A DNA stretch of 64,000 nucleotides from positions 9,548,001 through 9,612,000 of the forward strand of contig NZ_CP108070.1 of NCBI RefSeq assembly GCF_036178845.1, in the 5' to 3' direction. Shown here piece by piece: positions 1-12,043 of this stretch (the first letter of the stretch is position 1; every line of letters begins with the position of its first letter). Source of the DNA: Streptomyces sp. NBC_00271. Its GTDB lineage: Bacteria > Actinomycetota > Actinomycetes > Streptomycetales > Streptomycetaceae. Under the pieces are notes generated by a model that was not told the DNA's origin, made no database searches, and worked only from the letters and a program-made list of their open reading frames with translations. A program made the translations under genes and the position numbers.

Positions 1-330
1 GGCGTGCGCGCCGAACGGTTCGGTTCTGAATCCCGTGCACCAGTCGGCCCACCTGCCGCGTGCCCGGCACAGCAGGACGGTGGCCACGGAACGCTGGAGG
101 CAACCGAGGCCCGCGCAGCGGGTACTGACCGAGACGACGGAGCGGCGGGCCCGCGCCACCTCGGCGTATCCGGCGGGGTGGGACCCCTTGCTGACCACGC
201 CCAGCACGCGGTGCAGTCGGGCCGGCGGCAACCGGACCAGCAGACGGGCCGCCCCCGCGGCGCACCGGGGGGCGAGCTGCCGGTACCAGGGCAGCCGCGG
301 GGCCTGTTCGGCCACGGCGGGGGTGGTCAC
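1..330 (-). CDS. mslB2: Lasso peptide B2 leader peptidase (partial, runs off left edge)
   Basis: Reads on the minus strand from a GTG at 330 to the window edge with no stop, so the C-terminus is missing. About 110 residues are visible. They end in a transglutaminase-like protease core with a CLQRS motif, whose Cys is the expected nucleophile, and a GAHA stretch at the edge carrying the expected His. B2 proteins cut the leader from lasso precursors. The start overlaps the stop of the RRE gene (GTGA), giving translational coupling in the order precursor, cyclase, RRE, protease. The call rests on motif and context. The symbol follows the MS-271 cluster because the precursor core matches that peptide. 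Confidence 0.88.
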   Translation of the reverse strand, partial: MTTPAVAEQAPRLPWYRQLAPRCAAGAARLLVRLPPARLHRVLGVVSKGSHPAGYAEVARARRSVVSVSTRCAGLGCLQRSVATVLLCRARGRWADWCTGFRTEPFGAHA

Positions 331-590
331 GAGGCCACCTCCACGAGCTTGGCCGCGCTGAGCGCGTCGATGAGGGCCTGGACGTCCTGCCGCGCCTGGT
401 CGTCGCTGACCGGGGCCGCGGCGCACAGGCCGGCGGCGGCCGCGTCGGGCGCCTCTCCGTCGAGGAGTTGACGTAGGACGCCCGCGCCGGAGTGGTTCAG
501 CTGCCAGTAGCGGCCGCGGCGCCCGTCGAGCAGGACGGCCCCGGTGTCGACGACGGTGAGGGTGACGTCGCGGGCGAGGGTCAGCTTCAT
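327..590 (-). CDS. mslB1: Lasso peptide B1 / PqqD-like RiPP recognition element protein
   Basis: 87 residues, the usual size for a stand-alone RRE (PqqD family). It begins MKLTLARDVTL and carries the family pattern of two beta strands around LDGRRGRYWQLN followed by a winged-helix part ending KLVEVAS. RRE proteins bind the leader of the precursor and deliver it to the B2 protease. The ATG overlaps the cyclase stop (ATGA at 587-590) and the stop overlaps the B2 start, so all three genes appear translationally coupled. Separate B1 and B2 genes are typical of actinobacterial lasso clusters. Confidence 0.9.
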   Translation of the reverse strand: MKLTLARDVTLTVVDTGAVLLDGRRGRYWQLNHSGAGVLRQLLDGEAPDAAAAGLCAAAPVSDDQARQDVQALIDALSAAKLVEVAS

Positions 591-2428
591 CGGAGTTCTC
601 CCGTAGGCGTGTTCCGGGCGGGTGGCAGGGGGTGTGTCTCCGGGTGTGTCCGCAGCCAGCTTTCGCAGGCCACGGTGGTGTCGATCGGCTGAAGGTGATG
701 GGACATCGGCCCCGGGTTCAGCACCGCGGACCGGAAGGCCGCCGGGTCGATGAGGCCGAGCCGGGCGAGCTGGGAGTCCTCGCACAGCTCCAGGATCCGG
801 GCCCGGTTGCGGGCCAGGCCCCGGAACGCCTCCGCGCTGAACTCGCCCTTGTCGCGGCGGCCCAGGATGTCCGCGGGGACGAGACCCTGTGCGGCCGAGG
901 TGAGCAGCGGCTTGAACCGCCCGCCGAGCAGGCGCTCGTCGATCCGGGTGGCCAGGGCCGCCTCCACCACCCGGTCGTCGAGGAAGGGCGCGTCCCAGGT
1001 GATGCCGGTGTCCCCGAGGGCGGTGTTGACCTGGCGGACGGTGGTTCCCTCGAAGACGAGTGAGGCGAGCGCCTGGTGCCGGGCCCGGTCGGTGTCCAGG
1101 GGTCCGGGCCCCTCGGTGGCGGCGTCGGTGAGCAGGGCACGGACCGCGGCCACGGCGTCGGGGGTCGCCCAGGCCGGCATGCGGGGCGCGAACACCCAGC
1201 CGAAGTCGGGTTCGTCGACGGGCGGGGGCGGGGCGTCGATGCGGGCGGCGACCCGGCCGAGGTTCCGCGCGAACGTCGACCGGTCGAGCAGCGAGCGTAC
1301 GGTCGCCCGCCACGGCCAGCGATTGGCCAGCCGGTAGCGGTTGACCAGCCGCAGGCCGCCGACCGGTGTGGCCCGGGCCAGGGACCAGGCGCAGGCGGGC
1401 ATCCGGCCGAACAACTCGTCACCGCCGAAGCCGGTCAGGTGCAGTGTGGCGCCCTCCGCCGTGGCCCGCTTGGCCAGGTCCTGGATGTGGGCCAGTCCGG
1501 AGGCCCAGGTCGAGGGACCTTCCGGGGCGGCGCCCACGAGGTCGGCGGTGTAGCCGATGTCGAACAGGTTCTCGGCGCGGTCGGCGGACAGCGTGTGGTG
1601 CCGGGCCGCCGGCAGGCACTCCGCGGCCCGGTGGGCCCACATCGTGTCCGCGTTGGCGCTGTCGATCGGCATCACGTGGTACGTGACCAGGTCGGCCCCG
1701 GCCGCGTGGGCGAGGAAGCACAGTGAGGTGGAGTCCAGGCCGCCGGACAGGTCGGCGCTGAGGGTGCCGCCCGCGGCGACCCGGGTCGTGATCGCGTCGT
1801 CCAGCGCCGCACGGACGGCGGCCGCTCCCTCCGAGAGCGTGAGCGCCGGCTCCGGGAGTTCCCACCAGCGGATCTGCCGGGCCCGGCCGTCCGGGTCCAG
1901 TTCCAGCCAGTGGCCGGTGGTGAGCGCCTCGACGCCCCGGCGGACGGGGCGTTGGGCGAGAGGCCAGGGTGGTCCGCCCGGCGCCAGCAGGCGGGCGGCG
2001 AGCGCGGTCTCGTCGAGGCCGGCGCCGGTCAGCCGCAGCAGGGGTTCCACCCCGCTCGCGGCGACGGTCACCCCGTCGACGACGGCCGTGAAGATCTGTC
2101 GTACGCCGACGACCGAACCCTGCACCCTGGTCCTGCCGTCCAGTGACACCGCCAGGTGGACGGCGCCGGGCAGCCGGGACGCGATCGCGTCCACGTCGTG
2201 CAGCGAGCGCAGTCGGCCGAGTGCGGCCGTCGCGGCGGTCTCGTGGAGCCGGGTGCGGCCCAGTACGACCATCCGCCGTGGGCCCGCTTCGACGACGACG
2301 GCCTCGGCCTCGGGCCAGTCGCCGACGATCCAGGGCCGCCCCGACGCGTGGTCGACGCGCCGCGTCGCCCGCAGCCGGCCGGCCGCCGCGGCACCGGCCG
2401 GGCAGTCCGGAAGAACCACGAATTCCAT
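587..2428 (-). CDS. mslC: Lasso peptide macrolactam synthetase (asparagine synthase-like cyclase, C protein)
   Basis: 613 residues, the normal length for lasso C proteins. An N-terminal glutamine-amidotransferase-like region is followed by an asparagine-synthetase domain with the ATP pyrophosphatase motif SGGLDSTS about one third of the way in, and GFGGDELFGR further on. It adenylates the side-chain carboxylate of the ring acidic residue (Asp9 of the core here) and closes the macrolactam on the Cys1 amine. I chose the ATG at 2428 because GAGG lies about 6 bases upstream; an in-frame GTG at 2446 sits directly on a purine run with no spacing. It lies 73 nt downstream of the precursor, separated by a strong stem-loop. 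Confidence 0.92.
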   Translation of the reverse strand: MEFVVLPDCPAGAAAAGRLRATRRVDHASGRPWIVGDWPEAEAVVVEAGPRRMVVLGRTRLHETAATAALGRLRSLHDVDAIASRLPGAVHLAVSLDGRTRVQGSVVGVRQIFTAVVDGVTVAASGVEPLLRLTGAGLDETALAARLLAPGGPPWPLAQRPVRRGVEALTTGHWLELDPDGRARQIRWWELPEPALTLSEGAAAVRAALDDAITTRVAAGGTLSADLSGGLDSTSLCFLAHAAGADLVTYHVMPIDSANADTMWAHRAAECLPAARHHTLSADRAENLFDIGYTADLVGAAPEGPSTWASGLAHIQDLAKRATAEGATLHLTGFGGDELFGRMPACAWSLARATPVGGLRLVNRYRLANRWPWRATVRSLLDRSTFARNLGRVAARIDAPPPPVDEPDFGWVFAPRMPAWATPDAVAAVRALLTDAATEGPGPLDTDRARHQALASLVFEGTTVRQVNTALGDTGITWDAPFLDDRVVEAALATRIDERLLGGRFKPLLTSAAQGLVPADILGRRDKGEFSAEAFRGLARNRARILELCEDSQLARLGLIDPAAFRSAVLNPGPMSHHLQPIDTTVACESWLRTHPETHPLPPARNTPTGELR

Positions 2429-2463
2429 GTCGCCTCGTTCCCCCACTCCTCGTTGCCCCGGGT

Positions 2464-2493
2464 GGTGCCGGTGCGTGTGAACGCACCGGCACC
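2464..2493 (-). promoter_or_regulatory. Perfect 13-bp stem-loop between lasso precursor and cyclase
   Basis: Two perfect 13-base arms (2464-2476 and 2481-2493) enclose a 4-base loop. There is no T-run after the stem in the direction of transcription, so it is unlikely to be a simple full terminator. A plausible role is attenuation or 3'-end protection of the precursor message, giving more precursor than enzyme; that role is inferred from position only. Confidence 0.7.
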
Positions 2494-2501
2494 GGACGTG
2501 A

Positions 2502-2630
2502 TCACCAGAAGCAGACGATCGCGTAGCCGCAGCCGGCGAAGTCGTTGCAGCTTCCGACGCCGAGGCACTTCGTGAGCTCCTCGAAGTCGCCGACTTCCTG
2601 GAGCATGGGGGGTTCGTAGATCGCGGACAT
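2502..2630 (-). CDS. mslA: Lasso peptide precursor, siamycin I/MS-271 type
   Basis: A 42-residue ORF missed by length-filtered gene calling. A 21-residue leader (MSAIYEPPMLQEVGDFEELTK, with the usual Thr two residues before the cut) is followed by a 21-residue core starting CLGVGSCND and ending YAIVCFW. The core has Cys at 1, 7, 13 and 19 and Asp at 9, the class I pattern: ring Cys1-Asp9 and two disulfides. It agrees at every position with the published siamycin I/MS-271 core as I remember it (Val4, Ile17, C-terminal Trp). The RBS GGGAGGA lies about 6 bases before the ATG. In MS-271 the final Trp is the D form, made by an epimerase that would lie left of this window if present. Siamycins are known to affect fusion of enveloped viruses and Gram-positive quorum sensing or cell wall synthesis. 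Confidence 0.96.
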   Translation of the reverse strand: MSAIYEPPMLQEVGDFEELTKCLGVGSCNDFAGCGYAIVCFW

Positions 2631-2706
2631 GGGGGTCCTCCCGTATCGGATCGGTCAGGCCGACCTTGTTCGGCCTGTGATCTGCCACGGAAGTTACGGG
2701 GCTGAA

Positions 2707-2758
2707 TGTCCCACCGGCATGGGGCAGTTGTCCCACGCCCGTCCTGTCAGCTGTCCCA
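2707..2758 (-). promoter_or_regulatory. Three phased TGGGACA direct repeats upstream of the lasso precursor
   Basis: On the plus strand TGTCCCA begins at 2707, 2729 and 2752, i.e. spacings of 22 and 23 bp (two helical turns). As TGGGACA they read toward the precursor start 77-128 bp away. The outermost copy lies within the last codons of the ABC permease gene. Same-face direct repeats are typical binding arrays for LuxR/NarL-type response regulators, one of which is encoded at 5846-6538. The link between the two is an inference. Confidence 0.55.
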
Positions 2759-3499
2759 ACGGCGCTGGCGCACCCAGCCCCATGCGAGGGCGGCGACGGT
2801 CCAGGCGAGCAGCACCGTGAAGCCGAAGGCCGTGTGTGGGGAACGGACGGTGAGCAGTTCGTTTCCCGCCTGGTCGGGGAAGTACCGGGCCATCTCCTTG
2901 GTCGCCCCGATGAGGGACAGGATGTGTGTCCCGGCGAGCACCATAGGCAGCAGCACGGCCAGGGGTACGACGGCGTTGCGGGCGATCGCCGCGATACCGG
3001 CCGCGAACAGGCACATCAGGGTCAGATAGACGACCGCCCCGGCCAGGGCGCGCGGGACTCCGCTCGCACCGAGCGAGGAACCGTGGGACCCGAGGGCCGC
3101 CTGCGTGGCCAGATAGCCGAGGACGGTGACGGGGACGGACACGGCGATCGCCGCCAGGGCGGTGACTCCCATCTTCGCCGCGTAGAGCCGCCCGCGCCGG
3201 GGTACGGCGAGCAGCGAGACACGGATCATGCCGGACGTGTACTCGCTGGTGACGACGAGCACGCCGAACACGATCAGCGCCAACTGGCCGTAGAGGATGC
3301 CGTCGAGACCGGCCTGCTCCGGGGTGAAGTCGGAACGAAGGCTCGGGTTGTCGGACTCCAGCGCCTTCTTCGCGGACCAGCCGTCGAGGGCGGCGATGAG
3401 GACGCTGACCGCGGCGAACAGCAGCAGCGAGATCTGGGTGCCGCGCAGGCCGCGCAGCTTGGTGGTCTCGGCGCGGACGGCCGCGAGGGTCTCAGACAT
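2747..3499 (-). CDS. ABC transporter permease of the lasso cluster
   Basis: 250 residues with about six hydrophobic segments (for example LALIVFGVLVVTSEY and VPLAVLLPMVLAG), typical of ABC-2 type single-domain permeases. The ATG at 3499 overlaps the ATPase stop by 8 bases and has AGGA about 8 bases upstream. Its position directly before the precursor suggests it exports the mature lasso peptide or gives self-protection with the upstream ATPase. The substrate is inferred from context; ABC-2 permeases are otherwise hard to assign. Confidence 0.85.
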   Translation of the reverse strand: MSETLAAVRAETTKLRGLRGTQISLLLFAAVSVLIAALDGWSAKKALESDNPSLRSDFTPEQAGLDGILYGQLALIVFGVLVVTSEYTSGMIRVSLLAVPRRGRLYAAKMGVTALAAIAVSVPVTVLGYLATQAALGSHGSSLGASGVPRALAGAVVYLTLMCLFAAGIAAIARNAVVPLAVLLPMVLAGTHILSLIGATKEMARYFPDQAGNELLTVRSPHTAFGFTVLLAWTVAALAWGWVRQRRWDS

Positions 3500-4415
3500 G
3501 GGTGTTCCTGCCTTCCTCACCCAGGGCGTGGTGGCCTTCTCCGATGACGTCGAGGAAGGTCTCCTCCAACGACCCTGCGTGGGTGGCGAGTTCGTCGAGC
3601 GGGAAGCCGCCCGCCGCGGCGATCCGGCTGACGTCCACGGCCGCCATGCCCACGACGTCCAGGCCGCCGCCGGGGACGCGGCTCACAGTGGCGCCGCGAC
3701 CTTCCAACTCCCTGCCGAGCCGGTCGGGTTCGGCGGTGCGGACCCGGACGTACGACCGTCCGTGGCGCTCGATGAAGTCCGACATCCCCGTGTCAGCGAG
3801 GAGCTGGCCCCCGCTGATGACGACCAGGTGATCGGCGACCAGGGCCATCTCGCTCATCACATGGCTGGAGATGAGGACGGTACGGCCCTCGGCGGCCATC
3901 GAGCGCAGCAGGTCGCGCAGCCAGCGGATGCCCTCGGTGTCCAGGCCGTTGACCGGTTCGTCGAGCACCAGCACGGGCGGGTCGCCGAGGAGCGCGGCGG
4001 CCAGGCCCAGCCGCTGGCCCATGCCGAGGGAGAAGGTGCCGGTCCGGCGCCGGGCCGCGTCCGTGAGCCCGACCGCCTCCAGGACCTCGGCGACCCGGCC
4101 GCGGGCGATCCGGTTGCTCTGGGCGAGCCAGCGCAGATGGTCGCGCGCGGTCAGGCCGCGGTGCGGGGCCGAGGTCTCCAGCAGGGCGCCGATGTGGCGG
4201 AGGGGGTAGGCCAGGTCGCCGTAGGCGTGCCCGTCGATCCGCGCGGTTCCGGCGTCGGGGCGGGTCAGGCCCAGCATCATCCGTAGGGTGGTCGACTTCC
4301 CGGCGCCGTTGGGGCCGAGGAAGCCGGTGACGGCTCCGGGCCGCACCGTGAAGGTCAGGCCGTCCACTACGGTGGCCGGCCCGTACCGCTTGGTCAGGTT
4401 CTGGACGTCAATCAC
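3492..4415 (-). CDS. ABC transporter ATP-binding protein of the lasso cluster
   Basis: 307 residues from a GTG reading VIDVQNLTKRYG. Walker A GPNGAGKST lies near residues 34-42, with signature FSLGMGQR, Walker B LVLDEP and the H-loop in SSHVMSE. The C-terminal extension resembles drug/bacitracin exporter ATPases (DrrA/BcrA type). An upstream in-frame ATG at 4472 would add 19 arginine-rich residues with no family match. It pairs with the permease, whose gene overlaps its 3' end. Likely function is export of, or resistance to, the lasso peptide. Confidence 0.87.
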   Translation of the reverse strand: MIDVQNLTKRYGPATVVDGLTFTVRPGAVTGFLGPNGAGKSTTLRMMLGLTRPDAGTARIDGHAYGDLAYPLRHIGALLETSAPHRGLTARDHLRWLAQSNRIARGRVAEVLEAVGLTDAARRRTGTFSLGMGQRLGLAAALLGDPPVLVLDEPVNGLDTEGIRWLRDLLRSMAAEGRTVLISSHVMSEMALVADHLVVISGGQLLADTGMSDFIERHGRSYVRVRTAEPDRLGRELEGRGATVSRVPGGGLDVVGMAAVDVSRIAAAGGFPLDELATHAGSLEETFLDVIGEGHHALGEEGRNTHV

Positions 4416-4561
4416 GCGACGAGTCTGGCCGCGCCGGCCGCACCACACATCGGACCGGGGTCGGGACGGCACGGGCCGGTTTCGCGGACCGGACCCATAC
4501 CGCAGTATGAGACCGTTTCAGCCATATGCGGTGGGCGGGATGTATGGCGGTTGGCGTGGCA

Positions 4562-5695
4562 CTAGTACGGCAGTGTTGCGAGGATCCGGAAGCCCGCGCC
4601 GGGGCGGGGGCCCGCCGTGAGGGTCCCGCCGTGCGCGACGGCCCGTTCCCTCATCCCGACGAGCCCCATGTCGCCGCCGGGCACGGTCGGCCGGTGCCCG
4701 GGTCCGGGGCCGTCGTCGGTGACGCCGATCGTCAGCACGCCGTCCTGCGCGGTGACGCTGACCAGGCAGCGGGTCGGGGCAGCGTGTTTGACGACGTTGG
4801 TCAGCGCCTCCTGGACGATCCGGAACGCGGTCAGCGCGACCCCGTCGGGCGGTTCCTCGGCGCAGTCGGAGCGCAGGTCGACACTGACGCCCGCCGCCTC
4901 GGCCGTACGGACGAGAGAGGGCAGGTCCGACAGCCCGGGGACCGGCTGGAGGTCCTGCTGCTGGTCGACGGGTTCCCGGCGCAGCACCTTGAGGGTGGCC
5001 CGCATGTCGCGCAACGCCCTGCGGCTGATGTCCTCGATGACTGTGAGGGCCTCTCTGGCCTCCTCGGGGTGGGTGGCGATGACGTGGTTGGCAACCCCGG
5101 CCTTGATCGCGATCAGGCCCACGCTGTGGGTGACGACGTCGTGGATGTCCCGGGCGATCCTCATGCGTTCTTCGACCTTGGCCTGCTCGGCCGCCTGCAC
5201 GATGGTCCGCCGCAGGCTCTCGCGTCGCTCCCGTACGGCCGTCCCTGCGGCCCACGTCGCCCCCAGCACCAAGAGCCCGAACAGCAGTTGCACCGCCAGG
5301 GTGCCGCCTGTGTAGTGCTGCCCGCCCGTCACCGTCAGCAGGGCCGCGCCCGCCGTGCTCGCCCCGCCGACGATCACCGCCGACCGCCCCAGCTGCCGTC
5401 GCCGTGTCGTCGCGACCAGGTACAGGGCGTAGGCCGCGGAGAGGAAGACGGCAGGGCCGAGACCGGCGGCCAGCGCCACGCAGGACGCGACGAGGACGAT
5501 CGCGAACACCGGGACGGGCCACAGCCGCCGTACGGCGAGCGGCAGCGCGGTGGCGAACGAGAGCAGCGACACGGTCAGGCCACCGGGCGCACCGCCGCTG
5601 TCGGGCCGTACCAGCGTCAGTTGCGGAAGCAGGGCGAACCCGAGGGCCGCCGCCCCGTCGAGGAGGACCAGGCGTCGGCGCGAGACATCTCCCAT
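4562..5695 (-). CDS. Membrane sensor histidine kinase (NarL/DesK-type, HisKA_3)
   Basis: 377 residues. An N-terminal membrane part with about five hydrophobic segments (residues roughly 10-155) has no large extracellular domain. A HisKA_3 dimerisation segment carries RDIHDVVTHS (phospho-acceptor His185), followed by an HATPase domain with the N box (AFRIVQEALTNVVKHA) and G box (DDGPGPGH). Kinases of this class pair with LuxR-type regulators. The only regulator nearby is the divergent gene 151 bp away, whose receiver lacks the expected acceptor Asp, so the cognate partner is uncertain. It sits just upstream of the ABC exporter genes in the same orientation. Confidence 0.88.
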   Translation of the reverse strand: MGDVSRRRLVLLDGAAALGFALLPQLTLVRPDSGGAPGGLTVSLLSFATALPLAVRRLWPVPVFAIVLVASCVALAAGLGPAVFLSAAYALYLVATTRRRQLGRSAVIVGGASTAGAALLTVTGGQHYTGGTLAVQLLFGLLVLGATWAAGTAVRERRESLRRTIVQAAEQAKVEERMRIARDIHDVVTHSVGLIAIKAGVANHVIATHPEEAREALTVIEDISRRALRDMRATLKVLRREPVDQQQDLQPVPGLSDLPSLVRTAEAAGVSVDLRSDCAEEPPDGVALTAFRIVQEALTNVVKHAAPTRCLVSVTAQDGVLTIGVTDDGPGPGHRPTVPGGDMGLVGMRERAVAHGGTLTAGPRPGAGFRILATLPY

Positions 5696-5845
5696 GTCCC
5701 GAACCTATGCGCCTGATCAGCCGGACGTCCAACACGGCCGGAACAGGCCCATGACCGCCTAAGTCGGTGCGGTCCGTCCGATTCGTCTGCTTAGGCTGTC
5801 ACCGTCTCTGCAGGCGTTCAACGCTTACCACGGGGGTGCAAAGCT

Positions 5846-6538
5846 ATGCGGATCAACCTGTTCATCCTCAGTGAGGACCCGGTGTCCCTGGCCGGACTCG
5901 AGGCGATCGTCGAACAGGACGACAGCGTCAACCTCATCGGCACAGCGGTCGACGAGTCCCACGGCCTTCGATGTCTGGAGAACAACCCGCTCCGCCCGGA
6001 CGTCGTGCTCATAGGTGAACCGCCGTCAAAACGCGCCATCTGCAGGAACGTTGCGTGGATCGTCTCCCTGTACCGCCAGGAGAAGTCACGGCCACAGATC
6101 GTCGTGGTGTCGCAGAACGACTACGACGACGTGATCGTCTCCGCCCTCCGTCTCGGCGTGAACGGGTATCTCGCGCGGATCGCGTCCCCGGAGGAACTGT
6201 TTCAGTCCCTGCACATCGTGGCGCGCGGGGGTGCCGCGTTCAGCCCGACGATCGCGGCTCGCTTCAGCAGGTTCTTCGCCACCATGCAAAGACTTCCCGA
6301 GCCGCCCGAGTTCTCCCAACTGACCAGCAGGGAGACCGAGATACTGGAACTGCTCGCGGACGGCATGAACAACCGTCAGATCGCCCGGCGCCTCTTCCTC
6401 GCGGAGAAGACCGTACGCAACTACGTCTCCCGCATCTTCAGCAAACTGGAGGTGCACGATCGGGCCGCCGCCGTACTGCGCGCACGCGACGCCGGTTTCG
6501 GCGACCAGCCCGACACCGTACTGCCCCAACACGCTTGA
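5846..6538 (+). CDS. LuxR/NarL-family regulator with an atypical receiver domain
   Basis: 230 residues: an N-terminal receiver-like domain (about 1-120) and a LuxR HTH (LTSRETEILELLADG through KTVRNYVSRIFSKL, about 150-215). The acidic pair is retained (E10, D11), but the position where the phospho-acceptor Asp is expected, after DVVLI, is Gly57, and the conserved Lys region reads GYLARIA with no Lys. It therefore may not be controlled by normal phosphotransfer and could respond to a ligand or be constitutive. It lies at the outer edge of the lasso cluster, divergent from the kinase, and is the natural candidate to bind the phased repeats before the precursor. Confidence 0.88.
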   Translation: MRINLFILSEDPVSLAGLEAIVEQDDSVNLIGTAVDESHGLRCLENNPLRPDVVLIGEPPSKRAICRNVAWIVSLYRQEKSRPQIVVVSQNDYDDVIVSALRLGVNGYLARIASPEELFQSLHIVARGGAAFSPTIAARFSRFFATMQRLPEPPEFSQLTSRETEILELLADGMNNRQIARRLFLAEKTVRNYVSRIFSKLEVHDRAAAVLRARDAGFGDQPDTVLPQHA

Positions 6539-6760
6539 CAACGCCAGGAGATCGAGCGCGCGGCCCTCTGGTCCGTCCGTCGAACTGTCCCGCCTCGCCT
6601 TCCACGATTCCTCGAAGTTCCGCTTCGGTCCCGGCAAGCTCACCCAGGCCATGGACGCCGAGGAGAATGAAGGCAGCCAGCCGGACGGCCTCCGTCAATC
6701 TGAGCTGGGAAAACACCCCGAGAGCGTGGTCCCTGCCGGTCGTCCGACAGGGTGAGCCGC
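6539..6760. other. Intergenic segment, no gene recognised
   Basis: This 222-bp gap between the lasso-cluster regulator and the LacI gene has short open frames on both strands, but none has a convincing RBS, family motif or codon pattern. It marks the border between the lasso cluster and the sugar-uptake genes. Confidence 0.5.
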
Positions 6761-7783
6761 CTATGGCTTGGGCACGGGTTGCTCCCCCGAGCCTCGGACG
6801 ATCAGTCGTGTGGGAACGGTGATGGTGCGGGCGCGGGAGCGGTCGCCGTCGAGTCGTGCCAGCGCCGTGGTCGCCGCTGTTCTGCCGAGTTCTTCCGCGT
6901 CCTGGGCGACGACGGTCAGGGCCGGTTCGAGTGCCTCGGCCAGCGATACGTCGTCGAAGGCGACGACGGCGACATCCTTGCGCTTGCTGCGGGCCAGTTC
7001 GGCGACGATGCCCAGCGCCATGATGTTGTTGCCGGCGAACAGGGCAGTGGGGGGATCGGCCAGGCCGAGGAGCTGGGAGGTCGCGGCCTCGGCGCCCTGC
7101 TGGTCGTGGGCGTTGATGACGAGTGAGCGGTCGTAGGGGATGTCGGCCTCCTGCAGCGCGGAGCGGTAGCCGGCCAGACGTTCACGGCGGGTGTACAGCT
7201 TCGGGGGCAGGTCGCCGACGAAGCTGATGCGCCGGTGACCGTGGGCGATGAGGTGGGCGACGCCGTCGTGGGCTCCGGCGCGGTTGGAGCTGACGATGCT
7301 GTCCGTGGCGAGGCCGGCTCCGGGGCGGTCGAGGAAGACGACGGGCAGTCCCGCCGTGCGGTGGGACTTGAGGTGGGAGTGGTCGGCGCCGACGGACGGA
7401 ACGACGATCAGGATGCTGACCCGCCGGGCGAGGAACTTGTCCGTCAGGGCGCGTTCGCGATCGGGGTCGTCCGCGGAGGAGCCCATGAGCAGGGTCAGTC
7501 CGCGGTCGCGGACGGTGTCCTCGATGGCGCGGGCCACGGCTCCGAAGAAGGGGTTGGCGAGGTCGGGAATGACCAGGCCGATGGTGGTGTCCGGGCCGCC
7601 GACGCGGATGTTGCGGGCCATGAGGTTCGGCTGGAAGCCGAGCTTGGCCACTGCGGCCAGTACCTGTTCCCTGGTCTGCGCGGAAGCGGGTCCGTCCTCG
7701 TTGAGGACTCGGGAGACCGTCTTGGCGCTGACGCCGACTTCGCGGGCGACGTCGGCCAGGGTGGGGCGGCGGTTCGCTGCCAT
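6761..7783 (-). CDS. LacI-family transcriptional regulator of the adjacent sugar genes
   Basis: 340 residues. The N-terminal LacI HTH reads TLADVAREVGVSAKTVSRVLN (residues about 8-28) with a hinge helix near QPNLMARNIR, followed by a periplasmic-binding-protein-like effector domain. It lies 75 bp downstream of the ABC ATPase gene on the same strand, so it may belong to the transporter operon and control it. Four copies of a TGTCATCG-centred operator occur in the neighbouring promoters (10892-10921 and 12126-12155), fitting the symmetric CG-centred sites of this family. The effector is probably a sugar or sugar phosphate. Confidence 0.92.
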   Translation of the reverse strand: MAANRRPTLADVAREVGVSAKTVSRVLNEDGPASAQTREQVLAAVAKLGFQPNLMARNIRVGGPDTTIGLVIPDLANPFFGAVARAIEDTVRDRGLTLLMGSSADDPDRERALTDKFLARRVSILIVVPSVGADHSHLKSHRTAGLPVVFLDRPGAGLATDSIVSSNRAGAHDGVAHLIAHGHRRISFVGDLPPKLYTRRERLAGYRSALQEADIPYDRSLVINAHDQQGAEAATSQLLGLADPPTALFAGNNIMALGIVAELARSKRKDVAVVAFDDVSLAEALEPALTVVAQDAEELGRTAATTALARLDGDRSRARTITVPTRLIVRGSGEQPVPKP

Positions 7784-7858
7784 GGAGAAACCGTCTCCTG
7801 AGGGCTCTCGGTTCCGGCCGCGGCCTCGGCCGGAAACTGCGAGAGCTGGGTTGTGCTG

Positions 7859-8695
7859 TCAGGTGGCCTGGACTCCGGCGGCCTTCGCGGCCTTGGAATC
7901 CGCTACGACAGTATCTCCGGCCTCGTCGATGCTGAGCGCGCCGGTCATGATGGCGACGACCTCGGCCATGGAGTAGTCGGACGGCTTGATCACGGCAGCG
8001 CGCCGGCCCAGCCGGTGGACGTGGATCCGGTCGGCGATCTCGAAGACGTGGGGCATGTTGTGGCTGATCAGAACGACCGGCATGCCCTTGTCGCGAACGC
8101 GGCGGATGAGGTCCAGGACCTGACCGGACTCCTTGACGCCGAGGGCTGCGGTGGGCTCGTCCATGACGACGACGCTGCGGGCCCAGGCGACGGAACGGGC
8201 GACCGCGACGGCCTGCCGCTGTCCGCCGGAGAGCGTCTCCACCGACTGCGTCAGCGAGCGCAGGCCGATCTTCAGGTCGGCCATGTGCTCGGCGGCCTCC
8301 TGCCGCATCCGCTTCTTGTCCAGCATGCGGAAGACACTGCCGAGCACGCCGGGACGGCGGAGCTCACGCCCGAGGAACATGTTCGAGGCGATGTCCATGG
8401 AGGCCGCCACCGCGAGGTCCTGATAGACCGTCTCGATACCGTGGGCGCGGGCACTTTGCGGGCCGGAGAAGGTGATGGGCTTCCCGTTGAGGCGTATCTC
8501 GCCGGCGTCGGGGACCACCGCGCCGGTGAGGGCCTTGATCAGACTGGTCTTGCCGGCGCCGTTGTCGCCGATGACGGCGAGGACCTCGCCGGGGAGCAGG
8601 TCGAAGTCGGCGCCGTCGATGGCGGTGACCTGGCCGTACCGCTTGACCAGACCACGGGCCTGCAGCACGGGCGTGGGGGAAGTGGTGGCGGTCAT
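7859..8695 (-). CDS. Sugar ABC transporter ATP-binding protein (FrcA-like, single ATPase domain)
   Basis: 278 residues from an ATG that overlaps the permease stop (ATGA). Walker A GDNGAGKTS lies near residue 40, with signature LSGGQRQAVAVAR and Walker B VVMDEPTAALG. Unlike RbsA or XylG it has a single nucleotide-binding domain, as in FrcA-type systems. The EPTAALG signature belongs to carbohydrate uptake transporter family 2. It energises the permease upstream. The long open frame continuing past its start into the permease is an artefact of GC content. Confidence 0.92.
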   Translation of the reverse strand: MTATTSPTPVLQARGLVKRYGQVTAIDGADFDLLPGEVLAVIGDNGAGKTSLIKALTGAVVPDAGEIRLNGKPITFSGPQSARAHGIETVYQDLAVAASMDIASNMFLGRELRRPGVLGSVFRMLDKKRMRQEAAEHMADLKIGLRSLTQSVETLSGGQRQAVAVARSVAWARSVVVMDEPTAALGVKESGQVLDLIRRVRDKGMPVVLISHNMPHVFEIADRIHVHRLGRRAAVIKPSDYSMAEVVAIMTGALSIDEAGDTVVADSKAAKAAGVQAT

Positions 8696-9687
8696 CGGGC
8701 CTTCTTCCGGGAGAGCTGGTCGACGGTCACCGCGAGGATCACCAGAACACCGGTGATCAGGGTCTGGTAGATGGAGGCGACGCCCATCAGCTGGAGACCG
8801 TTGCGGAACACGCCGACGATGAGCACGCCGATGAAGGTGCCCAGGACCGAGCCGCGTCCGCCGAAGAGGCTGGTGCCGCCGAGGACCACGGCGGTGATGC
8901 TGTCGAGGTTGTCGGTCTGTCCCGCCTGGGGGTCGCCGACTCCGGTGCGGGAGATGAGCAGCAGGGCGGCGATCCCGTACAGCAGACCCGCCACGGTGTA
9001 GATGCCGATCGTCAGCCGGGAGGTGCGGATGCCGTTCAGCCGCGCCGCTTCCTGGCTGTTGCCCAGGGCGTAGACGTGCCGGCCCCAGCCGGTGCTGCTC
9101 AGCGCGTAGGCGAGCAGGAGGAACAGGGCGATGGTGACCAGGGAGCCGTAGGTGATGTCGGTGTGGCCGAGCGGGAAGGTCAGCCCGAGGGCCGTCAGTG
9201 GGCCGGGCAGGTTGGTGACCGTCTGCTCCTCGGAGTAGATGTGGGTCAGCGCGAACGCCACGTTGAGCATGCCGAGGGTGACGATGAACGGCGGCAGCGG
9301 GATCTTCTGCACCAGCAGCCCGTTGAGCAGCCCGAAGCCCGCGCAGACCGCTATGCCCAGCGCGATGGCGACGAGCGGCGGCAGGGAGCCCTCGGCGGCC
9401 ATCTTGGCGATCATGATGCTGCCGAACGCCATCACGGCTCCGCAGGACAGGTCGATGCCCGCGGTGAGGATGATCAGGGTCTGCCCGATGGCGAGGGTGC
9501 CGACGACCATCACCTGCTGCACGATCAGCGAGAAGTTGCCGCCGGTGAGGAACTGGTCGGTCGAGAGGGAGAAGAAGGCGCAGGCGAGAAGGAGGGCGAC
9601 CAGAGGGCCGGTGGTCGGTGCCGTGAGCAGTCTGCGGGCCGTGGTCGGCGCTTTGAGCTCGGCGTACGGCGTGGTCGTGGCTGTCAT
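8692..9687 (-). CDS. Sugar ABC transporter permease (RbsC/FrcC type)
   Basis: 331 residues from an ATG reading MTATTTPYAEL, about nine hydrophobic segments, including GQTLIILTAGIDLS, the conserved motif of ribose/fructose-type permeases, and a late cytoplasmic loop GGTSLFGGRGS. The stop overlaps the ATPase start. An in-frame extension to 10224 lies antisense-like across the binding-protein gene and has no homology. With the ATPase and binding protein it forms a standard three-part CUT2 importer. Confidence 0.92.
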   Translation of the reverse strand: MTATTTPYAELKAPTTARRLLTAPTTGPLVALLLACAFFSLSTDQFLTGGNFSLIVQQVMVVGTLAIGQTLIILTAGIDLSCGAVMAFGSIMIAKMAAEGSLPPLVAIALGIAVCAGFGLLNGLLVQKIPLPPFIVTLGMLNVAFALTHIYSEEQTVTNLPGPLTALGLTFPLGHTDITYGSLVTIALFLLLAYALSSTGWGRHVYALGNSQEAARLNGIRTSRLTIGIYTVAGLLYGIAALLLISRTGVGDPQAGQTDNLDSITAVVLGGTSLFGGRGSVLGTFIGVLIVGVFRNGLQLMGVASIYQTLITGVLVILAVTVDQLSRKKAR

Positions 9688-9815
9688 GCGAAGTCCTTGT
9701 CGGAAGACAGAGGTCCCGGTGGGAGGACAAGGGGGCGGCCGTCCCCGGTCGGGGAGGTGGGGCCGGCCGTCCCGCTGAGGGGTTTGGAAATGGCGGCCAG
9801 GGGCGGGTGAGCGGC

Positions 9816-10832
9816 TCAGCCCCAGCAGTTGTCCAGGCCGTAGGCGGTGTCCTTCGACGTGACCCCGTCCTGTGCCTTGTCGGTGATCAGCGTGACGCCG
9901 GTGTCGGTGTAACCGGACGCTTTCTTTCCGTCCTTGGCGTACGTCACGACGGCCTTGACGCCCTCGGCGGCCATCTTCAGCGGGTACTGCTGCGAAGTCG
10001 CGGCGATCTTGCCGTCCTTGACGGCCTGGGTGCCGGTGCAGCCGCCGTCGACCGAGACGATCAGGACGTCCTTCTCCCGGCCCTTGGCCTTCAGCGCGGT
10101 GTACGCGCCCAGGGCCGCCGGTTCGTTGATGGTGTAGACGACGTTGATGCCGGGCGCCTTCTGCAGGCAGTTCTCCATCGCGGTCTGGCCCTTGGCCTGG
10201 TCGCCACCCGTGTCCTGGGCGCACACGACGTCCTTGTCGGTGGCGCCGAAGCCCTTCAGGAATCCGTTGTGCCGCTGGACGCCGACGGAGACACCCGGCG
10301 CGAGGTCGAGGGCGGCTATCTTCGCCGTCTTGCCCTTCATGGCGGCCTTGGCGTACTCGCCGATCAGCTGGCCGGCCTTGAGGTTGTCGGTGGCGAAGAG
10401 GGCGTCGACCGCGCTCTCCGGCTCGGTCGGGGTGTCCAGGGCGATGACCACGACACCCTTGGCGCGGGCTTTCTGGATCGCGGGCACGATCGCCTTGGAG
10501 TCGCTCGGGGTGATCAGGATGCCCTTCACGCCGGCGGCGACCATGTTCTCGATGGCCGTGACCTGACCTGCGTTGTCCCCGTCGAACTTGCCTGCCGCCG
10601 TGGACAGTTGGGCGCCGTTCTCCTTGGCTGCCTTCTCCGCGCCCTCCTTCATCTTCACGAAGAACGGGTTGGTGTCGGTCTTGGTGATCAGACCGACCTT
10701 GACGCTGCCCGATCCGGTGCTCGCAGTGCCCGATCCCGATCCGGATCCACAGGCGGTCAGGGCGAGGGCTGCGACACCCGTGCAGGCAGCGGCTCTGATC
10801 AAGGGGGAGGGCAGACGAGAGATGCGTGACAT
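9816..10832 (-). CDS. Sugar-binding lipoprotein of the ABC importer (FrcB/RbsB type)
   Basis: 338 residues. A lipoprotein signal peptide ends in lipobox LTAC (Cys about 28), then a low-complexity Gly/Ser linker, then a periplasmic-binding domain starting [15 protein letters not shown] and containing [10 protein letters not shown]. Start ATG at 10832 has AGGAG 7 bases upstream. It binds the sugar outside the membrane. Homology of the core is with fructose/ribose binders. The divergent kinase resembles fructokinases, so fructose or a related ketose is a reasonable but unproven substrate. Confidence 0.92.
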
Positions 10833-10891
10833 GAACGACTCCTGCGGGATTGCGGGCGAACGGGCCGGCATCGGGGCATGCCGTCCCTCGG

Positions 10892-10921
10892 TGTCATCGT
10901 TGACTTATGTCATCGTTGACA
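10892..10921. promoter_or_regulatory. Two tandem LacI-type operators between transporter and kinase genes
   Basis: TGTCATCGTTGACT (10892-10905) and TGTCATCGTTGACA (10908-10921) are near-palindromes 16 bp apart in the divergent promoter region. They match the perfect palindrome at 12126-12139. Control by the LacI protein at 6761-7783 is inferred. Confidence 0.7.
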
Positions 10922-11080
10922 CTGCTTGGCGAGGATGATGGACTCCGTTCCCCGGCAACGTCAATGCCTTGCACCCGTCACAAATCGGCAACGCCCGCGG
11001 CCGTCGTCCGCCCGAAGCCGTTCACCGGCTGCCCGGGACGTGCTTGTTTCTGTCCGCGCATTCCGAGAGAAGAGCAGCCC

Positions 11081-12043
11081 ATGAGCCCGCGCCAGATCAC
11101 CGTCCTGGGGGAGTGCGTCGCGGACGCCTTCACCGAACCCGCAAGCGTCCCGGATGAGCTCGCCCTGCGGGTGCTGCCCGGTGGCGGACCTGCGAACACG
11201 GCGGTGGCCCTGGCCAGGCTGGGTACCCCGGCCCGCTTCCTGGCACGCCTGTCCGGCGATGTGTTCGGCCGCATGTTCCGGGCTCATCTCGAGGCGTCCG
11301 GCGTGGACCTGTCGTACGCCGTCGCGGCCGCCGAGCCCAGCACGCTGGCTGTTGCCGAACTGGACGCCGAGGGTCAGGCTGCGTTCTCCTTCCATGCGCA
11401 GGCCACCGCCGACTGGCAGTGGACCAGTGCGGAGCTGGTCGGCGTCGACCTGGCCGACACCGCCTGTGTGCACACCGGCTCGCTGGCCCTGGTCAAGGAG
11501 CCTGGTGCGGCCGTGCTGGAGGACTTCCTGGCTGCCGCCGTGCCTCGGGCCACGATCAGCATCGACCCCAACGTCCGCCCGCTCCTGGTGCACCCCGAGG
11601 TCTACCGCGCCCGGCTGGCGCACTGGTGTGCCCTCGCGGATGTACTGCGGCTGAGCGAGGACGACCTGGAACTCCTCCTGCCCGGAACACCGCCCGAGCA
11701 GGCGTGCGACATCTGGCATGCCGCCGGTGCGCGGCTCGTCGTGATCACGCGCGGTGCCGACGGCGCCCTGGCCTCACTCGACGGGGAGCGGGTGCAGGTG
11801 CCCGCGGTGGCGACGCCGGTCGTCGACACGGTCGGTGCAGGTGACTCTTTCACCGCGGGACTGCTGCACCACCTCGGCACCCACGGACTCCTCGGCGGCA
11901 GGCTGACGGACCTGCGTCTCGGCGACGTCGAGGCAGCCTGCCTGTTCGCCGCGCAGGTCGCGGCCCTGACCTGCGCGGTTGCCGGCCCCAACCCGCCGTG
12001 GTCGAACCAGTTGGCGCAGTTCGCGACCGTCGGCGACGCCTGA
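11081..12043 (+). CDS. PfkB-family carbohydrate kinase (fructokinase-like)
   Basis: 320 residues. The N-terminal sugar-binding signature GGGPANTAVALARLG (residues about 34-48) and the C-terminal PfkB motif DTVGAGDSFTAGLL, with the catalytic Asp in GAGD, are intact. It phosphorylates a sugar imported by the divergent transporter, most likely a ketohexose. I chose the ATG at 11081 (MSPRQITVLGE), preceded by a GAGAGAAGAG purine run; an upstream in-frame start would run through the operators. Two operator-like sites lie in its promoter region. Confidence 0.92.
   Translation: MSPRQITVLGECVADAFTEPASVPDELALRVLPGGGPANTAVALARLGTPARFLARLSGDVFGRMFRAHLEASGVDLSYAVAAAEPSTLAVAELDAEGQAAFSFHAQATADWQWTSAELVGVDLADTACVHTGSLALVKEPGAAVLEDFLAAAVPRATISIDPNVRPLLVHPEVYRARLAHWCALADVLRLSEDDLELLLPGTPPEQACDIWHAAGARLVVITRGADGALASLDGERVQVPAVATPVVDTVGAGDSFTAGLLHHLGTHGLLGGRLTDLRLGDVEAACLFAAQVAALTCAVAGPNPPWSNQLAQFATVGDA

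Follow-up and report, generated by a model that had tools for sequence, protein, structure and literature searches.

A predicted siamycin I (MS-271) precursor gene in a complete msl-type lasso peptide cluster of Streptomyces sp. NBC_00271

A short open reading frame (ORF) in the genome of Streptomyces sp. NBC_00271 is, judging from its sequence, almost certainly an mslA-type gene for the precursor of siamycin I, which is the same as MS-271, and it lies in a complete, intact-looking msl-type cluster; siamycin I and MS-271 are handled as a single compound in PMC7549694. In the window analyzed here, a stretch of 64,000 nucleotides at positions 9548001-9612000 of a contig in a 12.28 Mb genome, this gene (A) runs on the minus strand from 2630 to 2502, with an ATG start, 42 codons and a TGA stop. 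A first-pass annotation, made from the DNA letters, had already placed a 42-codon ORF there, without giving the strand. The translation is MSAIYEPPMLQEVGDFEELTKCLGVGSCNDFAGCGYAIVCFW. From this translation, and from comparison with PDB sequences and related clusters, we assign residues 1–21 to the leader and residues 22–42 to a core of 21 residues, CLGVGSCNDFAGCGYAIVCFW, which includes Cys1, Cys7, Cys13, Cys19, Val4, Asn8, Asp9, Ile17 and Trp21.

By sequence, this core is that of siamycin I/MS-271. The first-pass annotation had proposed as much from residues including the four Cys, Val4, Asp9, Ile17 and the C-terminal Trp, and the alignment agreed with it: the core is the same as the MslA core of PDB 8GQA chain B at all 20 positions present in that entry (which lacks Trp21), with no mismatch, and ends in Trp21, while it differs from RP 71955/aborycin (1RPB) at positions 4 and 17 only. 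Compared with the sequences of the PDB at E up to 10, the core matched five distinct ones: 1RPB, 8GQA, 6AK0, whose core ends in D-Trp, 8ITG, an MslA precursor with its last residue altered, and the distant 2LS1 (E 0.011). Aligned with 8ITG chain B, the full precursor had the same residue at 39 of 41 positions, with a phmmer E-value of 2.3e-25, which rules out a chance match. The sequence also has the features of a class I lasso peptide, with Cys at positions 1, 7, 13 and 19 and Asp9 as acceptor, and those of a lasso leader, with a YxxPxL motif and a Thr at the penultimate leader position; both the leader motif and the class I linkages are given in PMC7168211. The NCBIfam leader model NF033521 matched the precursor with 36.3 bits (cut-off 19), and a search against Pfam gave no match. 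Since the leader and the cluster type are common to the whole siamycin family, they would equally suit a related but distinct member (aborycin, siamycin II, specialicin or humidimycin). This alternative has a negligible probability, however: the other members differ at position 4, 8 or 17 (PMC7549694), aborycin having Ile4/Val17 where siamycin has Val4/Ile17 (PMC6409603), and the core found here has Val4, Asn8 and Ile17. We thus rejected other siamycin variants on the core residues. A second copy of the precursor in the genome was likewise rejected, as the genome-wide search found one match.

Naming was mixed among the six protein matches to the precursor: one of them, at 88% identity, is called “aborycin family tricyclic lasso peptide” by NCBI, and JGI lists three only as hypothetical proteins. 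Annotation of this family is thus patchy.

The genes around A form the rest of the cluster. From high to low coordinates, the minus strand reads kinase, D3, D4, A, C, B1, B2, D1, D2, E, F, H and R2, and R1, at the high-coordinate end, is read in the opposite direction from the plus strand. The claim of a complete cluster, also made in the first-pass annotation, holds for the genome but not for the window alone, which cuts B2 and lacks D1, D2, E, F, H and R2; the window and the flank from the same genome (L006) together contain the full siamycin/aborycin set of 14 genes. This is the number given for the aborycin cluster in PMC10608281 (14 ORFs, R1 through R2). A is adjoined by a C cyclase and a split B (B1 RRE and B2 peptidase), as expected of a lasso cluster and as the annotation had it. 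C (587..2428, minus strand) is a predicted lasso cyclase of 613 amino acids with an asparagine-synthase domain (PF00733) and SGGLDS at residue 228. B1 (327..590, minus) is a leader-binding RRE protein (PqqD-like) of 87 amino acids, with 98.5 bits to NF033530 (cut-off 70), and its start overlaps the end of C by 4 bases. B2, the leader peptidase, is present with its first part (1..330, minus; NF033537, 109.2 bits, cut-off 33). It starts with a GTG at 330, overlapping the B1 stop, and extends 162 bases past the window start; the whole gene (L006 14839-15330) encodes 163 amino acids. With the starts chosen here, the genes are tightly packed, each one in the C-to-H run sharing 4 bases (ATGA or GTGA) with the gene after it. 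On the other side of A are D4 (2747..3499, minus), an ABC-2 type permease with a putative role in export/immunity, D3 (3492..4415, minus), an ABC transporter ATPase, a sensor histidine kinase of MslG/HumG type (4562..5695, minus), and R1 (5846..6538, plus), a NarL-type regulator with a degenerate receiver in which the phospho-acceptor Asp is replaced. C scored below the cut-off of the NCBIfam macrolactam cyclase model NF033561 (225.3 vs 300 bits), and E and F reached no NCBIfam model cut-off; the assignments of C, E and F are predictions from Pfam domains and synteny. We found SGGLDS in C, CLQRS and HAW in B2, and CPEC in F, which we take to be the motifs of these proteins. Beside the cluster, the window (6761-12043) contains a LacI-type regulator and, after it, an apparent ABC transporter for sugars and an apparent sugar kinase, the latter two judged by eye.

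Silence in culture is common among Streptomyces clusters, and it is conceivable that this one, too, is silent or decayed, with the right sequence and no product in the strain. We consider this unlikely. Sequence features that speak against it are the lack of internal stops in A, C, B1 and B2, the open frames of the other cluster genes, the 95% identity of H with the Streptomyces olivochromogenes protein, the phospho-acceptor retained in R2, and the lack of TTA codons across all 14 genes.

The product of this siamycin I cluster is likely the D-Trp form, as predicted from the epimerase gene. H aligned with 8GQ9 over 440 of 440 residues (1-440) without gaps, scored 906 bits with the NCBIfam epimerase model NF038314 (cut-off 700), and retains the eight metal-binding or catalytic residues of MslH (D11, E44, N87, H88, D91, H259, H261 and H295); the Ca ligands and the His/Asp dyad of MslH are named in PMC10406935. 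H thus has both the family score and the key residues of a C-terminal Trp epimerase of MslH type. Siamycin was originally assumed to be all-L, and the same was believed of siamycin II and, initially, of humidimycin (PMC7168211, section 2.3), which speaks for a product with L-Trp21. Such a product is nonetheless very improbable here, given an MslH orthologue with all eight key residues, the D-Trp of humidimycin and MS-271 (PMC7168211, PMC10406935), and the D-Trp at the end of the PDB peptide 6AK0. For the mature peptide we predict an [M+H]+ of 2162.8591 and an [M+2H]2+ of 1081.933; the same calculation for humidimycin gives 2177.8588, the value reported in PMC7168211.

From orthology with the systems described in PMC10406935, PMC9266682 and PMC7168211, we infer the following pathway in this genome. 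B1 would bind the leader via the YxxPxL motif, and H, with B1, would invert the C-terminal Trp21 on the leader-bound precursor. B2 would then cleave after Lys21, with the Thr at the penultimate leader position, and C would close the ring around the threaded tail by joining the amine of Cys1 with the side chain of Asp9. The two disulfides, Cys1-Cys13 and Cys7-Cys19, may form with the aid of E and F; since knock-outs of mslE or mslF still made MS-271, at lower yield (PMC9266682), the role of E and F would be assistance at most. D1-D4 would carry out export, and the kinase and R2 would activate the cluster, with R1 damping it.

To place the cluster among its relatives, we searched genomes at two taxonomic levels. 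Within the genus (392 genomes, the window's own included; precursor matches at E up to 0.001), 12 genomes had a precursor match, of which 8 were siamycin-like and 4 distant (G035, G213, G298 and G368; 46-64% identity). Within the order, 9 of 391 genomes exceeded the family cut-off of H, and 301 of 391 had an H match of some kind with E no higher than 0.001; of the matches listed, nearly all were weak. A search of genome contigs with H gave 17 loci, eight with a siamycin-type cluster (L030-L036, L043) and nine without. Once L032-L035 were left out, because their contigs equal in length those of loci already in the set, 17 distinct clusters with both A and H remained, window included. The siamycin I core is present in nine of these (window, L019, L020, L030, L031, L077, L079, L080 and L081) and the aborycin core in three; five other cores occur in one cluster each. 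The core of Streptomyces sp. CB02056 (L036) ends in Phe21 and corresponds to the siamycin N1 of PMC7168211 (section 2.4). Gene content and order were the same over all 14 genes in 15 of 16 comparable clusters, including that of Streptomyces griseorubiginosus, stated to be an MS-271 producer in PMC10406935; in the sixteenth (L043), the contig starts only at D3, so that the kinase and R1 are missing. Four more distant lasso clusters (L026-L029) had no H match in the stretch examined, and one of them (L028 9267-9749) has three tandem lasso-type precursor ORFs after B2. We also observed that Streptomyces cellulosae (L037 10001-11284, the same place as L082 11797-13080) encodes a protein resembling MslH, with 51% identity, and that the flanks examined gave no match to a lasso precursor, C or B genes.

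The alignment of these clusters revealed possible RNA elements on both sides of A. Between A and C, at 2464..2493 (minus strand), fold and alignment indicate a hairpin with a 13 bp stem and a 4 nt loop. It is kept in 17/17 clusters, with pairing in 221/221 cells; two pairs are changed on both sides and 10 are invariant. The observed pairing and covariation scores were reached by none of 500 shuffles (statistics that ignore kinship), the count of both-side changes by 95 and the count of further pair types by 463. The window's own fold had a z-score of -4.2, with none of 200 shuffles as low. The sequence has no T-run after the hairpin, and no Rfam match for the RNA elements was found up to E 1 in window positions 1-8000. 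We rejected a dispersed repeat, as exact matches to the 24 fixed stem bases are confined to a single place in the genome. The idea of a hairpin between precursor and enzyme genes is probably not new: the hairpin removed from astexin-1 reportedly lay in this position. A table entry in PMC7549694 records that removal for astexin-1 expression.

Upstream, the 5’ leader of A (2637..2693, minus strand) has a conserved hairpin (2677-2656) and a predicted closing helix (2693-2684 with 2647-2637) that would pair the Shine-Dalgarno sequence. In the hairpin, a single pair has both of its sides changed, which is seen in 4 of the 11 distinct rows. This count of both-side changes was reached by 458/500 shuffles, the count of further pair types by 500/500 and the covariation score by 4/500; the fold had a z-score of -3.0 (3/200 shuffles as low). 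In 17/17 folds, three or more of the five Shine-Dalgarno bases are bound to sequence further upstream, in 13 of the folds to the proposed strand and in the other four (L021, L022, L023, L078) to another stretch; in L023 the closing helix has only 3 bp. When own strands were compared with swapped ones over 14 distinct pairs, 85 of 20000 permutations by duplex energy and 52 of 20000 by helix length did as well, in a comparison that leans towards structure, as the strands were hand-picked after viewing the folds, and that ignores relatedness. We consider the support for the Shine-Dalgarno-pairing helix to be moderate. Its anti-Shine-Dalgarno strand overlaps a -10-like TAACTT, and thus may lie outside the transcript. 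None of the titles and abstracts listed in literature searches, which took in little of the subscription literature, concerned a leader RNA of a siamycin cluster; this does not establish novelty. Further upstream are three TGGGACA direct repeats (2707-2713, 2729-2735 and 2752-2758, minus strand), spaced 22 and 23 bases, which are putative regulator sites. In an alignment of 12 clusters, the copy nearest A is TGGGACA in 12/12 and the far copy TGGGAC in 12/12, and the middle copy is not conserved.

The two response regulators differ in their receivers. With the Asp position placed by eye from a shared PDVVL stretch, R1 lacks the receiver Asp in 16/16 aligned sequences, having Gly, Ala or Ser instead, and R2 keeps it in 16/16. 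This fits the report that extra MslR1 lowered the MS-271 yield and extra MslR2 and MslG raised it (PMC7168211). A speculative reading, to which we give a low probability, is that the mslA message has its own conserved RNA controls (the Shine-Dalgarno-covering 5’ leader, and the 3’ hairpin separating mslA from the enzyme genes) that might tune translation and stability of the precursor message, perhaps on cell-envelope stress or the peptide, alongside an R1 repressor independent of phosphorylation. As small leads on how the dose of precursor is set relative to the enzymes, the conserved RNA elements around A and the degenerate receiver of R1 can be put to the test.

The siamycin I cluster described here is a further occurrence, in a new host, of a cluster that is already known and published; its core is one of the two most often detected in its family according to PMC7168211 (section 2.4). 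With this finding, an antibiotic family that is already well studied, for its lipid II binding, its inhibition of histidine kinases and its D-Trp epimerisation, gains one more host and a clean cluster for expression; no open question is altered by it. The msl cluster (Streptomyces sp. M-271, S. griseorubiginosus) has an identical core and the same 14-gene set, in a comparison based on 8ITG/8GQA and S. griseorubiginosus sequences. The H protein of S. griseorubiginosus is 86% identical to the one found here, and the precursor found here differs from that of 8ITG by two leader substitutions, Ile4 for Val and Glu17 for Asp. Closer still are S. olivochromogenes DSM 40451 (L030) and Streptomyces diastatochromogenes ATCC 12309 (L031), which are other species: their precursors are identical at 42/42 residues, H is 95% and 94% identical, respectively, and R2 99.6%, and the most divergent proteins are E and B2 (86% and 88%; 90% and 93%). 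Aborycin (abo/gul), specialicin (spe) and humidimycin (hum) share the cluster type, including a gene for the H epimerase (PMC7168211, PMC9266682), but their cores differ at positions 4, 8 or 17. Sviceucin, also a lasso peptide of class I, likewise has two disulfides and E/F homologues (PMC9266682, PMC11872507); in contrast to the siamycin-type clusters, however, its cluster is described in PMC9266682 as lacking H, and its product as lacking D-Trp.
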